From positions 1-22,794 of the IMG/VR virus record IMGVR_UViG_3300042868_005854: 22,794 nt of DNA. The stretch is one strand, 5' to 3'. The stretch is from a virus. Both the position numbers and the translations under genes were made by a program. This document shows, piece by piece, positions 2,815 to 19,495 of the stretch. Within the stretch, counting starts at the first letter, position 1. Each line of letters starts with the position of its first letter. Under the pieces are notes generated by a model. The model had not been told where the DNA came from and did not search any database. It saw only the letters and a program-made list of their open reading frames with translations.

Positions 2815-3182
2815 TATTCGCCTTGACTTTTCTGAATAGCTTTAATTTCGTCCTCAGCTTCTTGTAGCAAACGAGAACGTTCTTCATCAGATAAAATAAA
2901 CTCACCGCCGGCGGACTCATTTTCTTTAGCAGTAGCTGAAAGTAAACGTTGTACAACCGCAGCTAACTTAACCAATGCATCATCGTTCTTAACAGATACC
3001 TCGAGGTAATCTTTAATCATTGGAACGATAACTGCTGCATCGCCTACGTTTTTAACTAACGGTTGTAACTCTTTTATTAGCCCATCAATCTGACGTGACT
3101 TCATTTTTGAATTGTGGTAAATGTCCTTCATTAGGTCAGAGAAGGAAGTACCTTTGAATAACTCAAATTCAGTAGATGCCAT
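2814..3182 (-). CDS. Conserved phage protein downstream of late sigma (unknown function)
   Basis: 122 residues, strongly helical. It begins MASTEFELFKGTSFSDLMKD and continues with a conserved-looking IDGLIKELQPLVKNVGDAAV block, then an acidic C-terminal helix (residues about 95-122). It resembles proteins I associate with T4-like marine phages but I cannot name a function. It starts a new unit after the sigma gene: the leader carries an octamer promoter candidate inside an 11-bp inverted repeat whose arm includes the ribosome-binding site. Its stop overlaps the hub start, so whatever controls this start probably controls the hub gene too. Confidence 0.8.
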   Translation of the reverse strand: MASTEFELFKGTSFSDLMKDIYHNSKMKSRQIDGLIKELQPLVKNVGDAAVIVPMIKDYLEVSVKNDDALVKLAAVVQRLLSATAKENESAGGEFILSDEERSRLLQEAEDEIKAIQKSQGE

Positions 3183-3218
3183 TTATAGCCCTTTTATTAA
3201 TAAATATAGGGCTATAAA
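3182..3218 (-). promoter_or_regulatory. Leader hairpin enclosing a promoter-like octamer
   Basis: Perfect 11-bp inverted repeat (TTTATAGCCCT at 3182-3192, AGGGCTATAAA at 3208-3218) with a 15-base loop. The loop holds ATATTTAT (3200-3207) and the palindrome TTTATTAATAAA. On the RNA, the downstream arm contains AGGG of the ribosome-binding site and ends at the first base of the start codon. RNA started within the loop would lack the upstream arm. Confidence 0.7.
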
Positions 3219-3219
3219 C

Positions 3220-3981
3220 TTATTGGTGTAGACGTCCTGACTTTTGATATGACATATACATCTTATCAAAGTCTTTGCGCATTACATTTAATACGCGCGT
3301 GATATTTTGTGTTTTGAGTCCCGTACGTTCTCGTATAAGAATATAAATAGACTTCTTATTAAAGTTTTCTATGTTCTCACGTATACGGAATATTTCTAGT
3401 ATCGTATCGGCTATTAGAATATCACGTTTGTTTGAAAATATCATTTCCATATTAGTATCATACCAGTCTACCCACTGATTTACGAAATCCCTTAGGCCTT
3501 CTTGATATGATGATATTGATAATTCTAATGTTAAGTCTCGATCGTCGTCAATAACCGTTGTTTCTACACGACGTTTTAGTTTAGCATAGTTAGCATTGTT
3601 CTGTATAATTAAGTAGTTCTTAACTATACGGCTAAAGTAACTATAGGCTTTACCTTTACCTTGCGTATACTTATGAATTTTTTCATTAAGAAACGCTACT
3701 ACTTCACACTTAACATCTTCATATGGTACATCAAAATAACTAAATTTGAATGTATGATAGATATTTTCAACTAGTTTATTAAAGGCATAATCAATATGCT
3801 CTTTATAGATTCGATTACGTTTAGTTGTATCCGTTTCTATATTATAGGCTACAATAGCCTTTTCGGTAGTGGCCGTAAAGTACATGTTAGTAGCTTTACG
3901 ACCTCTTTTACCTTTTCTTTCTAATGCTTCTTCTGCTTCTTGTTTTGCTAAATCTGCATAAAACTGTTCAACTGGGGACAT
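3220..3981 (-). CDS. 55: Late-transcription sigma factor, gp55-like
   Basis: 253 residues. The central part matches the T4 gp55 group: RNRIYKEHIDYAFNKLVENI (55-74), an acidic FDVPYEDVKCEV block, and GKAYSYFSRIVKNYLI (about 110-125), which corresponds to the sigma region-2 core and -10 recognition part. The C-terminus is helical and could contact RNA polymerase. Such proteins direct host RNA polymerase to late promoters, usually with a sliding clamp; no clamp or gp33 gene is in this window. An AAAGG ribosome-binding site lies about 10 bases before the ATG. The gene is followed by the first octamer-controlled unit, so it is a natural reader of the ATATTTAT motif. Confidence 0.85.
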   Translation of the reverse strand: MSPVEQFYADLAKQEAEEALERKGKRGRKATNMYFTATTEKAIVAYNIETDTTKRNRIYKEHIDYAFNKLVENIYHTFKFSYFDVPYEDVKCEVVAFLNEKIHKYTQGKGKAYSYFSRIVKNYLIIQNNANYAKLKRRVETTVIDDDRDLTLELSISSYQEGLRDFVNQWVDWYDTNMEMIFSNKRDILIADTILEIFRIRENIENFNKKSIYILIRERTGLKTQNITRVLNVMRKDFDKMYMSYQKSGRLHQ

Positions 3982-7333: not shown

Positions 7334-7504
7334 TTAACTAATAGAAATACGATCTAATGCAAATTGTACACGTCGACGAATTTCGTTTAAACGACGTACT
7401 GCCTCATTTGTGTCAACGGCTTTCTTCGCAGCTAAATCTGCTAAAATCATAGCCATGTTGTCGGCTTCTTCTAAACGTCGTAACACATTGTCTTTGTCTC
7501 TCAT
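7334..7504 (-). CDS. Small helical protein (56 aa)
   Basis: Begins MRDKDNVLRRLEEADNMAMI and ends in RRRVQFALDRISIS. It is entirely helical with alternating charge, as in small DNA- or protein-binding helical hairpins. The ATG overlaps the UvsE stop as ATGA, and an AGAGGAG ribosome-binding site lies about 10 bases before it. An ATATTTAT octamer sits 20 bases upstream within the UvsE coding end, so it may have its own late start. Family not recognised. Confidence 0.75.
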   Translation of the reverse strand: MRDKDNVLRRLEEADNMAMILADLAAKKAVDTNEAVRRLNEIRRRVQFALDRISIS

Positions 7505-8544
7505 GATAATAACTCCTCTTTTGTATAAATATTGCGATATTCTAAAAGAGCTAATTCCTTAGCCTTTGCCTCGACCATAATATCTAAATCATAGCCGTAT
7601 GTATTGATAGGTAACTTGATGTAGTCAGCATGTGCTGTAATCTTGATCTTGTCAAACTCTTTCTTGTACTTGGCTAAGGTAGGCCATGTAGCTAACTCTT
7701 CGATCGTAATGTTATTGCGATCACACATGCCTTGTAGCATGGTCTGATACTCGGTACGACGGGACTCGCTATAATGACAAGCTTGACGTATATGTGAAGG
7801 CCAAGTACTACGTGCTAACTCTAATGCCTGCTGTTCGGTCAAATGACCAGGATTGAGCGAATGGTGAAAATAATCGAATGTAATCGGAATGCCGATATCA
7901 GTATGTACAAAGTCATATAACATCTGTACCGTATACATGCTAGGCTTGTCGTCATTCTCTACAACCAAACGTGCCTTGCAACTATCGGATAGCCTATGCC
8001 AATTACGTTTCCATACCTGCACAGTAGCTTCAGGATTGCCGTAAGCAGCGCCGATATGAATATTGACCTTGTTGTTATATGACGGCTCGAAGCCCATAAG
8101 GTCAAATAATTCGGATTGACGTTCGAGACTTGTAATAGTCTTGTCAACAACAGCTGCATGAGGCGAACCTAAAATATGAAATGGGCCGGGATGACACGAA
8201 AGGCGATGTCCATACGCTCGAGCATAGTCACCAGCTTCGAGCAACTTAGCCTTGATATGCTCTGCCTGGGGCAACTCGTGTGTCTCAAAATGATCGTGCC
8301 ACGGAATGAGATCTGAACCGATTCGGAATAGACGTATGTCATTCTCTTCGTTCCATTTGAGAATATGTAAAAGGTCGCTAGCGTTTTGTAAAGCTAACTC
8401 ACCAATCTTAGCTAAGTCTCGGGTGTTATACCAAGAACCTTTCTTAATGCCTCGGGACGTCGTAATACGACCACCGAGTTTTTTCGGTCGATTGCCTAGT
8501 GTCTGGTTGATACAGGCATAACCTAACCGTGTGTTATTGTTCAT
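7501..8544 (-). CDS. uvsE: UV damage endonuclease UvsE (UVDE)
   Basis: 347 residues, full length for the family. It starts with RLGYACINQTL as UVDE proteins do and carries the TIM-barrel metal-site motifs in order: FRIGSDLIP (73-81), CHPG (117-120), NIHIG (161-165), VVENDD (194-199, E196), FDYFHHSLNPG (223-233) and HYSES (257-261). The enzyme nicks DNA 5' of UV photoproducts, starting an excision repair route independent of UvrABC. For a phage it would repair its genome or delay host DNA loss in sunlight. It is the first gene of a transcription unit, preceded by one copy of the six-member promoter family and by a TATAAATA sequence. Confidence 0.93.
   Translation of the reverse strand: MNNNTRLGYACINQTLGNRPKKLGGRITTSRGIKKGSWYNTRDLAKIGELALQNASDLLHILKWNEENDIRLFRIGSDLIPWHDHFETHELPQAEHIKAKLLEAGDYARAYGHRLSCHPGPFHILGSPHAAVVDKTITSLERQSELFDLMGFEPSYNNKVNIHIGAAYGNPEATVQVWKRNWHRLSDSCKARLVVENDDKPSMYTVQMLYDFVHTDIGIPITFDYFHHSLNPGHLTEQQALELARSTWPSHIRQACHYSESRRTEYQTMLQGMCDRNNITIEELATWPTLAKYKKEFDKIKITAHADYIKLPINTYGYDLDIMVEAKAKELALLEYRNIYTKEELLS
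7525..7532 (-). promoter_or_regulatory. Putative late promoter octamer ATATTTAT (inside uvsE end)
   Basis: Lies 20 bases before the ATG of the 56-aa gene. It falls in codons for ...NIYTK near the UvsE C-terminus, so it could be there by coding chance. A 7-bp inverted repeat CTCTTTT/AAAAGAG brackets it, overlapping the AGAGGAG site; this is weak evidence for a hairpin. Confidence 0.4.
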
Positions 8545-11138: not shown

Positions 11139-11534
11139 TTACAATTGTTTTGGAATTGGTGTCGAACGACGGCCACCCTTAGTGCGCATTGCTTCCATTT
11201 GTTCAGCAACTTCTATCTCAGCGCGTATCATTTGTTGAATAACACTTTTCTCTTGCACCAGAGCTAATAAAGACTTATACTTACGATATGCATCATTAGA
11301 TGAAGCAGCATCAGCTGCTGTCTTAGACATGGCCTCTATTCTACTAGTAATACCGTCACGTAACTGTGAACGTGACATTGATCCGAAGCCTACAATATGA
11401 ACTTCTGGATCGATCGGATCAAAATCTTTAGGATCTAATAATCCACCATACTTATAAGATGTTTCGTTGAGCATGTTGTTCATTTCTTCAACAATCATCT
11501 CTCTAAGTTTATTTTTAAAATCCATGTGTTTCAT
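11139..11534 (-). CDS. Hypothetical helical protein (131 aa)
   Basis: The N-terminus MKHMDFKNKLREMIVEEMNN is an amphipathic helix like those at the front of several structural proteins in this window. A middle part (GFGSMSRSQLRDGITSRIEA) precedes two long helices, and the tail is basic with prolines (GGRRSTPIPKQ). Start and upstream stop overlap as TAATG. A virion or assembly protein is possible; not recognised. Confidence 0.72.
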   Translation of the reverse strand: MKHMDFKNKLREMIVEEMNNMLNETSYKYGGLLDPKDFDPIDPEVHIVGFGSMSRSQLRDGITSRIEAMSKTAADAASSNDAYRKYKSLLALVQEKSVIQQMIRAEIEVAEQMEAMRTKGGRRSTPIPKQL

Positions 11535-13936: not shown

Positions 13937-14227
13937 TTATATGCTGTTAATGTTAGCGTTAAGCCTAGAATCTTCTATATCTTCATCTTTCTTTACTATT
14001 TTAGCCAAACAATCCCAACCGGATGGAGCACGGTCGCAAGGCACACATTCGATTAACTCAATCGTATGCATATTGCCGTCGTTATACACATGAGCTACAT
14101 CTTGGTCCGCTTCACATAACCATACGTGCACGTCATGTATTGTACGGTATGGCACATACTGTGTTACGAAATATGTAGCTACCCAACGGTTATCCCGTTT
14201 ATGTATTCTTGCTTGCTTTCTTTGCAT
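13937..14227 (-). CDS. Hypothetical protein (96 aa)
   Basis: A mixed beta protein (RWVATYFVTQYVPYRTIHDV, then NDGNMHTIELIECVPC) with a cysteine pair in ECVPC and DCLAK. Not recognised. It overlaps the CYTH-like gene by 29 bases and uses an ATG within it. Confidence 0.68.
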   Translation of the reverse strand: MQRKQARIHKRDNRWVATYFVTQYVPYRTIHDVHVWLCEADQDVAHVYNDGNMHTIELIECVPCDRAPSGWDCLAKIVKKDEDIEDSRLNANINSI

Positions 14228-14657
14228 TGCGTTTTGCTATTGCTATGTTTGAATATTTCTTGTTTCCAGTTACTTCTTTACCGCAGTAGTCCGGCAGATA
14301 TACAATCGGCCGGTCGTCTGTATACTCAATTTCAACTACCATCGTGCCGTCTGCAAACACATCTATATCTACTGTATTACCATTGAAACGATCAAAGTAT
14401 CGTGTCTTCTCGAGTTTGATATCAGTAGCGGCGTACATTTCTAAAGCATCTTCCAACGGTATGTCATATTCGTACTCAACACGTTCTGTAGGACTTAGTA
14501 TTGTCTTAACGGTAAGACGTGCTTGATAACCGTCCATAATACGAACACGCATGTGCTTCTTTCCATCAAACATAACATAGCCTTGTTTGATATGTACAGA
14601 ATCTAACCCTTCTGGTAGATACTTTAGTTCAAATTTACGTTCTTGTTCTCTTGGCAT
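14199..14657 (-). CDS. CYTH / triphosphate tunnel metalloenzyme domain protein
   Basis: 152 residues. It begins with the ExExK signature as EQERK (residues 4-8), followed by alternating charged strands as in the CYTH tunnel: MRVRI (36-40), RLTVKT (47-52), EYEYDI (61-66), KLEKTRYF (81-88), VDIDVFADG (96-104) and VVEIEY (107-112). These enzymes bind triphosphates in a positively and negatively charged beta tunnel; members hydrolyse thiamine triphosphate, tripolyphosphate or RNA 5' triphosphates, or make cAMP. The substrate here is unknown. RNA 5'-end processing is an attractive idea for a phage but is only inference. The C-terminus is basic. Confidence 0.87.
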   Translation of the reverse strand: MPREQERKFELKYLPEGLDSVHIKQGYVMFDGKKHMRVRIMDGYQARLTVKTILSPTERVEYEYDIPLEDALEMYAATDIKLEKTRYFDRFNGNTVDIDVFADGTMVVEIEYTDDRPIVYLPDYCGKEVTGNKKYSNIAIAKRNAKKASKNT

Positions 14658-15162: not shown

Positions 15163-15236
15163 ATTTATATCTTTTTCCATACTTAATAATAAGAAGAATC
15201 TTTCATAAATCCTAGAAAAATGTTGAAAAAGTTACA
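15163..15236 (-). promoter_or_regulatory. Early/middle promoter-like element, copy A
   Basis: Sense strand GTAACTTTTTCAACATTTTT, then CTAGGATTTATG, then CTTATTATTAAG (15182-15193) and a purine-rich leader GGAAAAAGATATAA. The order and spacing match copies C and D. The core starts about 50 bases before the chosen ATG. Confidence 0.62.
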
Positions 15237-15248
15237 GTTTTTGTAATC

Positions 15249-15360
15249 AATTGATATACAATAAGTTATATAAAATAGTAGAAAACTCATTGAAAACCAA
15301 TGAGTTATAACTAATTGATATACAATATGTTATAAACCACTAATTTTCAATGAGTTATAA
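15249..15360. repeat. AT-rich repeat region: two direct-repeat pairs and a hairpin
   Basis: A 22-base repeat (AATTGATATACAATAAGTTA and two more bases) at 15249-15270 recurs at 15313-15334 with one mismatch. CAATGAGTTATAA occurs at 15298-15310 and 15348-15360. A 9-bp perfect hairpin AACTCATTG-AAAAC-CAATGAGTT lies at 15284-15306. The stretch 15181-15459 has no gene on either strand. Candidate roles are a replication origin, a regulator-binding array or a transcript boundary. Confidence 0.6.
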
Positions 15361-15370
15361 GATACAAATC

Positions 15371-15385
15371 GTTCGTTTAACGAAC
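15371..15385. repeat. 15-base palindrome GTTCGTTTAACGAAC
   Basis: Two perfect 7-base arms around one central base. It could be an operator for a dimeric regulator. It lies between the repeat region and a terminator-like hairpin. Confidence 0.5.
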
Positions 15386-15459: not shown

Positions 15460-15621
15460 TTATCGCTTATAGTCAAACCCTAGGTTCAATACAATCAAAC
15501 GGATATGTTTGAAAGATAGGTCCATACGGAACTCCAAAACCGTAAGTCCAAACAAACGTACTTCGGTACCTAACTTATCCCATTGCTTTGCATTTGCACC
15601 CCAACTGTTAATCCAGTTCAT
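15460..15621 (-). CDS. Small hypothetical protein (53 aa)
   Basis: Begins MNWINSWGANAKQWDKLGTE and continues to a beta/helix part (VRLFGLTVLEFRMDLSFKHI). The ATG is preceded at 6 bases by a strong AGAGGAG site. A hairpin suited to termination follows the stop. Not recognised. The strong site and open frame in a stretch otherwise without genes support it. Confidence 0.72.
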   Translation of the reverse strand: MNWINSWGANAKQWDKLGTEVRLFGLTVLEFRMDLSFKHIRLIVLNLGFDYKR

Positions 15622-15664: not shown

Positions 15665-15919
15665 TTACAGCTCATGATAACCAACATTAGCTTGTGTAAT
15701 GTAGTTATAACTCTGTGAAATATGGTCCTGTATCCAGCCCGGCAGATTCTTTTCCATCGAACCGACTTTCTTAGAAAGTTCGATAGCTTGTTTAGCAATT
15801 TGTAACAATTGCTGTTGTGCCATCTTTACCTCATGATCTTCGCCAGGCATGCCTTCTGATAACGCAAAACGCGATTCGCGTGGAATGCCGGCTAACCGTT
15901 GTAAACGTTCTGGATACAT
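15665..15919 (-). CDS. Conserved helical phage protein (84 aa), hairpin-controlled start
   Basis: Begins MYPERLQRLAGIPRESRF and has a C-terminal block KNLPGWIQDHISQSYNYIT that I recognise from small proteins of T4-like marine phages, sometimes attached to virion proteins. It is all-helical; a structural or assembly role is likely, as inference. A CGGAG site lies before the ATG. The start codon and first five codons form one arm of an 18-bp perfect inverted repeat (15904-15978), with a promoter-like octamer in the loop. Confidence 0.8.
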   Translation of the reverse strand: MYPERLQRLAGIPRESRFALSEGMPGEDHEVKMAQQQLLQIAKQAIELSKKVGSMEKNLPGWIQDHISQSYNYITQANVGYHEL

Positions 15920-15978
15920 ATGATCTCCGTTTTATTTATAAATATACGAAGCTTTACTTAATATGTATCCAGAACGTT
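15904..15978 (-). promoter_or_regulatory. 18-bp inverted repeat hiding a start codon, octamer in the loop
   Basis: AACGTTCTGGATACATAT at 15904-15921 is exactly inverted at 15961-15978. The 39-base loop holds ATATTTAT (15938-15945), an overlapping TATAAATA and the CGGAG ribosome-binding site. On the RNA, the downstream arm contains the ATG at 15919. Upstream RNA should fold and block the start; RNA begun at the octamer cannot form this hairpin. Confidence 0.8.
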
Positions 15979-16001: not shown

Positions 16002-16322
16002 TTAGGAGTTACCCTCATCTTTCTTGTTAAATACCGTATCCTCTAACTGTGTAATCAATTGAGCACCTACCATCGCCATGATTTGTTTTTCTTGCGGTTC
16101 GTAACGGTCTCCTGTTTCTTCAATGCATTGTTTGCAAAACTCAGCAGCATTTAGTATCGCTAGCTTATGTACCGTATCAAAATCAAGTTCCGGCTTAGCT
16201 TCCTCAATACGAGTCACCATGTTCTTATACAAATCTTTTGCGATAGCATTAATCATTTCGATTGTATCGAATTGATCTTTTCCGAGTAGAGCTTCGCTAC
16301 CACTCATGTCAATTTCTTTCAT
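16002..16322 (-). CDS. Hypothetical helical protein (106 aa)
   Basis: All-helical (FDTIEMINAIAKDLYKNMVT, then VHKLAILNAAEFCKQCIEET) with an acidic start and a short Asn/Ser tail. Not recognised. It begins with CACAATATG and no Shine-Dalgarno site, like its neighbours and like many Bacteroidota genes. Confidence 0.7.
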   Translation of the reverse strand: MKEIDMSGSEALLGKDQFDTIEMINAIAKDLYKNMVTRIEEAKPELDFDTVHKLAILNAAEFCKQCIEETGDRYEPQEKQIMAMVGAQLITQLEDTVFNKKDEGNS

Positions 16323-16919: not shown

Positions 16920-16985
16920 ATCTTTTATCTTTATCTTATACTTAAAAATAAGTACTTTTGGTCTAAAAACCTAAGGAAAAGTTAA
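16920..16985 (-). promoter_or_regulatory. Early/middle promoter-like element, copy B
   Basis: Sense strand GTTAACTTTTCCTTAGGTTTTTAG-like core, then AAAGTACTTATTTTTAAGTATA with the 5-bp inverted repeat ACTTA/TAAGT at 16940-16953, then AAGATAAAGATAAAAGAT. The core is degenerate and the leader to the ATG is about 20 bases longer than in copies C and D. Confidence 0.5.
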
Positions 16986-17325: not shown

Positions 17326-17400
17326 ATCTTTTATCTTTTTCTTATACTTAATAATAAGTGCTTTATCACACGAATCCTAGAGAAATGTTGAAAAAGTTAC
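17326..17400 (-). promoter_or_regulatory. Early/middle promoter-like element, copy C
   Basis: Sense strand GTAACTTTTTCAACATTTCT, CTAGGATTCGTGTGA (17366-17380), ACTTATTATTAAGT (17346-17359), then ATAAGAAAAAGATAAAAGAT and the ATG at 17325. Almost identical to copy D from ACTTATTATTAAGT to the ATG. Confidence 0.68.
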
Positions 17401-17445
17401 AAAAAGTTACGGTTATAACCAGTTCAATATCAACGAGTTATAACA

Positions 17446-17460
17446 CATTGAAAATCAATG
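17446..17460 (-). terminator. Small hairpin CATTG-ATTTT-CAATG
   Basis: Lies directly after the stop of the 45-aa gene and about 70 bases upstream of the copy C core. The same hairpin with one loop change occurs at 15288-15302 upstream of copy A. It may end the upstream transcript or form part of the promoter module. Confidence 0.4.
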
Positions 17461-17462
17461 GT

Positions 17463-17600
17463 TTAGGACCAAAACTCTATTACGCCGCAAATGGCCATTA
17501 TAATAGTCATGAGGACTTGCCAGTAACACATGGTACGGTGTTGTAATGGCCACTCGAAAAAGTTTTCCCAGCGCAAATGTTTATGTATTAGTTTCTTCAT
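17463..17600 (-). CDS. Small membrane peptide (45 aa)
   Basis: Begins MKKLIHKHLRWENFFEWPLQ, basic and aromatic, followed by one membrane helix (WQVLMTIIMAICGVIEFW). The ATG is preceded by GGAA at 8 bases. The basic-in layout suggests an inner-membrane peptide. Not recognised; too short to prove by composition alone. Confidence 0.6.
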   Translation of the reverse strand: MKKLIHKHLRWENFFEWPLQHRTMCYWQVLMTIIMAICGVIEFWS

Positions 17601-19418: not shown

Positions 19419-19495
19419 ATCTTTTATCTTTTTTCTTATACTTAATAATAAGGACTTTTGTGTGTGAATCCTAAGAAAAAGTGAAAAAAGTTACG
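19419..19495 (-). promoter_or_regulatory. Early/middle promoter-like element, copy D
   Basis: Sense strand GTAACTTTTTTCACTTTTTC, TTAGGATTCACACA (core 19462-19476), CCTTATTATTAAGT (19440-19453), then ATAAGAAAAAAGATAAAAGAT and the ATG at 19418. From the inverted repeat to the ATG it differs from copy C only by one extra A and one base. Confidence 0.68.

Follow-up and report, generated by a model that had tools for sequence, protein, structure and literature searches.

The inverted repeat over the start of gene 15919 probably works as a translational time lock of the T4 gene e and I-TevI kind, in which read-through RNA is locked and RNA started within the loop is free. This is the best supported and most likely reading of the site, argued for by its sequence, predicted folds, promoter motif and gene context and by arm covariation at a sister site (gene 3182), from which we infer the transcript starts, their timing, how translation is affected and the part played by a sigma-like protein. 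The site lies in a virus record of 22.8 kb that is probably a fragment and whose 22,794 nucleotides make up the window. Genes of the window match a ClpP-like head maturation protease and a baseplate wedge, much of it is syntenic with contig L164 (G004), and among isolates Flavobacterium phage immuto and Microcystis phage Mel-JY01 encode distant homologs of its proteins. The features at gene 15919 are as follows.

15665–15919, minus strand: 84-aa gene (MYPERLQRLAGIP...), member of a phage family that is widespread
15904–15921, minus strand: 3' arm, the two final leader bases followed by the ATG and onward, 16 coding bases of the 84-aa gene in total
15924–15928, minus strand: Shine-Dalgarno GGAGA in the loop, mostly paired in the predicted read-through RNA by an inner helix (15946–15951/15925–15930)
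15938–15945, minus strand: ATATTTAT, putative late promoter core in the loop, 26 nt 5' of the ATG
15961–15978, minus strand: 5' arm, which repeats the 3' arm exactly in inverted form; pairs extend to 15981, a single base being bulged on the opposite side

An earlier note on this DNA had described an 18-bp perfect hairpin over the gene start, and its arms, 39-nt spacing and minus-strand coordinates all hold: 15904–15921 and 15961–15978 are 100% complementary, and the minus strand reads, 5' to 3', as the 5' arm (15978–15961), the loop and the 3' arm (15921–15904). The 3' arm is AT followed by ATG TAT CCA GAA CGT T. With the ATG at 15919–15917, 16 coding and two leader bases are inverted, as had been proposed. 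The loop holds both the promoter-like octamer and the ribosome-binding site attributed to it, with ATATTTAT, TATAAATA (15933–15940, overlapping ATATTTAT) and GGAGA all located. A chance origin, which the note considered very unlikely, is excluded and the repeat is real. When the window was dinucleotide-shuffled 100 times, perfect inverted repeats with a spacer of up to 100 had a maximum length of 9–13 bp, and when start-site hairpins are ranked over 724 gene starts from the phage group's contigs, gene 15919 comes first with 18 bp, followed by the window's own gene 3182 at 11 bp and all others with 10 or fewer. That the repeat is an artefact of assembly or amplification is hardly credible. The record is a single uncultured contig and the exact arm sequence has no second copy among viral contigs, as an artefact would allow; however, only 18 nt of the 82-nt intergenic space are copied, with ordinary, unique sequence on either side, and chimeras usually invert longer stretches than this.

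Folding predictions for the two RNAs, a check that the note had proposed, separate them clearly. The read-through fold has 21 pairs and one bulge (minimum free energy −44.9 kcal/mol, z −4.4), and its inner helix CUUCGU/ACGGAG covers the Shine-Dalgarno. When the two RNAs are compared, the read-through RNA is predicted at −31.5 kcal/mol with 0.27 of the Shine-Dalgarno-to-start region unpaired, and an RNA starting in the loop just after the motif at −3.0 kcal/mol with 0.67 unpaired. The same test gives 0.19 for read-through and 0.66 for late RNA of T4 gene e, 0.31 and 0.87 for I-TevII, and a closed read-through RNA for gene 49 (0.08 unpaired); the soc control gives a less clear-cut result than these three, at 0.32 and 0.42 in this simple fold. 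Two features of this class of lock are found in silico at 15919, namely a Shine-Dalgarno and/or AUG paired in the read-through RNA, and a promoter inside the hairpin with a free Shine-Dalgarno on the late RNA from the putative start site. An Rfam search returned nothing at the gathering threshold. An intrinsic terminator at the repeat was considered and rejected, there being no terminator-like hit at this position and no U run 3' of the stem.

In T4, the starts of e, soc, 49 and the I-Tev genes are sequestered only on RNA from upstream promoters, and a late promoter inside the hairpin yields RNA with a free start (PMC3014915, PMC2988022); for gene e (lysozyme) the hairpin encloses the late promoter (PMC3014915; McPheeters 1986 cited therein). 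The predicted arrangement at 15919 is alike, with the Shine-Dalgarno and start paired in upstream RNA, a late promoter within the hairpin and late RNA lacking the 5' arm, and the geometry is close, the motif standing at −21 in e and −26 at 15919. The two differ in that the 15919 core is ATATTTAT rather than TATAAATA, the gene is unrelated, and the longer stem encloses the ATG as part of 16 coding bases. A search of 50,697 phage records with the 5 kb surrounding the hairpin gave no DNA match, to T4 or to any other of them. Predicted sequestration of the Shine-Dalgarno in read-through RNA only, for a putative late gene that would lie within an early or middle transcript, is also shared with T4 soc, gene 49, I-TevI/II/III and segB and with Aeh1 mobE (PMC2988022, PMC3014915), although these are other gene families, and the sister site at gene 3182 differs from them in covarying group-wide beside a sigma-like gene. 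The gene e-like logic put forward in the earlier note is supported by the folds, the T4 controls, the position of the promoter, the early-type element and the covarying arms at 3182; what did not stand is the T4 octamer, whose place is taken by ATATTTAT.

This substitution is seen across the group. ATATTTAT is concentrated at −30 to −21, where 117 of the group's 901 gene starts have it, against about 2 per 10-nt bin elsewhere, and its reverse complement has no peak over the same starts. As a group promoter the T4 late octamer TATAAATA was rejected, since it has no comparable peak at the 901 starts, so that of the note's promoter-like octamer the presence in the loop is retained and the group core is ATATTTAT instead. 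We call ATATTTAT late-type because it precedes very large genes and one matching PHROG endonuclease/head-closure families; its late timing is suggested by these sequence associations. Within the window it precedes genes 1547, 3182, 7504, 9148, 11979, 12260, 15919 and 20598. Most late-type promoters of the group lack a hairpin, and the idea that all of them lie in hairpins was rejected: when all late-type promoters are compared, permutation is exceeded in the 3182 group alone (0.50 against 0.237 ± 0.04), the others being at chance. A weaker third candidate occurs in the window and has no enrichment in relatives.

7516–7550, minus strand: candidate hairpin, CTCTTTT/AAAAGAG flanking ATATTTAT (7525–7532), before the small ORF 7504 and at the end of the endonuclease gene 7501–8544

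Perfect inverted repeats of 13–16 bp with similar arm sequence were also noted on three other contigs (L171 6017–6091, L170 16845–16915 and L189 3152–3214), the L171 copy within a 76-aa ORF about 70 nt upstream of an ATATTTAT.

Upstream of gene 15919 lies a second type of element, again on the minus strand.

16937–16973, minus strand: early-type element TAGG(A/T)TT..AAG..CTTATT.TTAAGTATA, heading the unit 16898, 16649, 16322, which runs as far as the hairpin

Further copies at 17343–17379 and 19437–19473 bring the matches to three, against 0.00 expected in shuffles; they precede genes 16898, 17325 and 19418, with a partial copy at 15180 and a related element before the endonuclease gene in L164. 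Inverted repeats of the form AACTCATTGA...TCAATGAGTT, ranging from imperfect to perfect, adjoin the early-type elements just upstream (15284–15356, 17405–17476 and L164 4011–4089), the L164 copy being 20 bp and perfect with a 39-nt spacer. Gene 15919 stands at the end of this unit, behind 16898, 16649 and 16322, and a search for terminator-like sites found none between 16002 and 15980. Early read-through into 15919 is expected from this position at the end of an early-type unit and the lack of a terminator-like site at the junction; the assignment of early and late timing follows from the motifs and is correspondingly provisional. Pattern search found no relatives of the neighbouring genes 16002–16322 and 14199–14657.

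These elements provide a model for how the lock would operate. Early RNA would start at the early-type element near 16955 and cross 16898, 16649 and 16322 into 15919, including both arms of the repeat. This RNA would fold so that the start codon and the codons next to it are enclosed in the 21-pair stem, with the inner helix over the Shine-Dalgarno, and with its start buried the 84-aa protein would not be made early. Late in infection, polymerase would initiate at the ATATTTAT of the loop, probably directed by a phage sigma factor, for which the 3220–3981 protein is a candidate. The late RNA would then begin downstream of the 5' arm with a leader of about 10–15 nt, leaving the ribosome-binding site open for translation.

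A second hairpin of the same design lies elsewhere in the window, directly downstream of the gene for this candidate sigma factor.

3182–3218, minus strand: second hairpin, 11-bp perfect arms (3182–3192/3208–3218) with ATATTTAT (3200–3207) in the loop
3220–3981, minus strand: sigma-factor-like gene, directly upstream of 3182

Nearly all structural matches of the 3220–3981 protein are sigma factors, with a Z of about 8 and an rmsd of 2.4–2.7 over about 92 residues against sigma region 2. Foldseek E-values are above 0.03, and the NCBIfam SigF match, found in 14 of 27 members, is weak. In this window, which is only a fragment, the sigma-like protein has no profile match to T4 gp55, and a reading as a gp55 homolog was set aside. 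Immuto and, more distantly, Mel-JY01 encode distant homologs of the sigma-like protein and of the 3182 protein, arranged in the same order; ATATTTAT lies upstream of the 3182 homolog in immuto, and inspection by eye found no evident hairpin of this kind there.

The arms at 3182, ATAGCCC...GGGCTAT, pair the Shine-Dalgarno, and in relatives they differ yet still pair, as AGTCC/GGACT, TAATCC/GGATTA, GATAACC/GGTTATC, GTTC/GAAC and AGAGC/GCTCT. Across about 30 distinct relatives the two arms change together, pairing being kept by compensatory changes. With their own arms the sequences have a mean minimum free energy of −7.69 kcal/mol, against −4.48 ± 0.39 when 5' arms are exchanged within the group; the own-arm mean was reached in 0 of 20,000 permutations (30 distinct sequences), and covariation is also found with 21, 16 or 10 protein-cluster representatives. 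This stronger result allows the register to vary. A rigid-register pair count lies weakly above shuffles (69.5% against 66.1%, 22 of 500 shuffles) because the stem register shifts between sequences. Stems in relatives have about 5–12 pairs, with the Shine-Dalgarno within the 3' arm in most sequences, and in some relatives a clear stem is absent. These stems bear on two alternatives to a translational lock. The read-through stem could be a site for RNase III or other processing that splits the early unit from the 84-aa gene, with the block of the start secondary. At 15919 the roughly 21 nearly perfect pairs do form a long double-stranded stem, but typical RNase III sites are longer than the stems of about 5–12 pairs at 3182, which moreover lie on the Shine-Dalgarno, and the promoter and ribosome site inside the loop also argue against processing, which we consider unlikely. 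The repeat could instead act as DNA, as an operator dyad or a cruciform recognised by a regulator of this promoter, given that the arms flank the promoter and its core TATTTATAAATA is palindromic. We judge this very unlikely, since the arms at 3182 still pair despite their variable sequence, a misfit for a fixed protein site, and the Shine-Dalgarno lies in the 3' arm there in most sequences.

The hairpin at 15919 has a different evolutionary distribution. Homologs of the 84-aa protein occur in more than 100 viral contigs and the gene start aligns with the ortholog start MNIERLQR..., from which we take the gene to be real, although annotated phage records and prokaryote genomes contain no match. 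ATATTTAT lies upstream in 26 of 62 non-redundant homologs, against about 0.4 expected. The nearest orthologs (67% identity, L208-L210) stand directly behind other genes and have neither a late-type promoter nor a comparable hairpin directly 5' of the gene. With the hairpin absent altogether from these orthologs, there is no arm covariation at 15919, and as far as the sequence data reach the hairpin is lineage-specific. Such a distribution might also reflect a recent template-switch event that duplicated the gene start in inverted form on a micro-scale and that serves no function yet. Template-switch events produce exact inverted copies, and the repeat is exact, has its copy within 60 nt and is absent in orthologs. 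A functionless copy is nevertheless improbable, given where the repeat falls: late-type promoters are few, and the one that it flanks, in the manner seen at 3182, stands at an early-to-late junction. As an origin, we suggest, template switching would explain the perfection of the repeat and is compatible with a present function as a lock.

Around the 84-aa gene, a small ORF of about 53 aa (MNWINSWGANAKQWDKLG..., about 15460–15621, minus strand) preceded by GAGGAG lies directly downstream, followed by a terminator-like site at 15385–15371. An N-terminal motif, (K)LRxLIREEV or ERLQRLAGI, is common to many genes of the group (1068–1547, 11139–11534, 15665–15919 and L164 2349–3710) and is perhaps a tag for head targeting or cleavage.

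Our results indicate that the timing lock of the T4 gene e type is not peculiar to relatives of T4; it appears here in a phage group with a different late promoter, and at 3182 it is kept by compensatory changes across about 30 distinct sequences. It is quite possible, and we propose tentatively, that promoter-in-hairpin locks evolved independently in a large, uncultured phage group that uses a late promoter of its own, ATATTTAT. They would occupy early-to-late junctions, with a conserved and covarying lock right behind the sigma-like gene and another, young, at 15919, and would arise repeatedly where a late gene follows an early one. The promoter-in-hairpin pattern would let early-to-late junctions of uncultured phages be tested for from sequence alone, and it points to two candidates for early silencing, the 84-aa protein and the gene that follows the sigma-like one.
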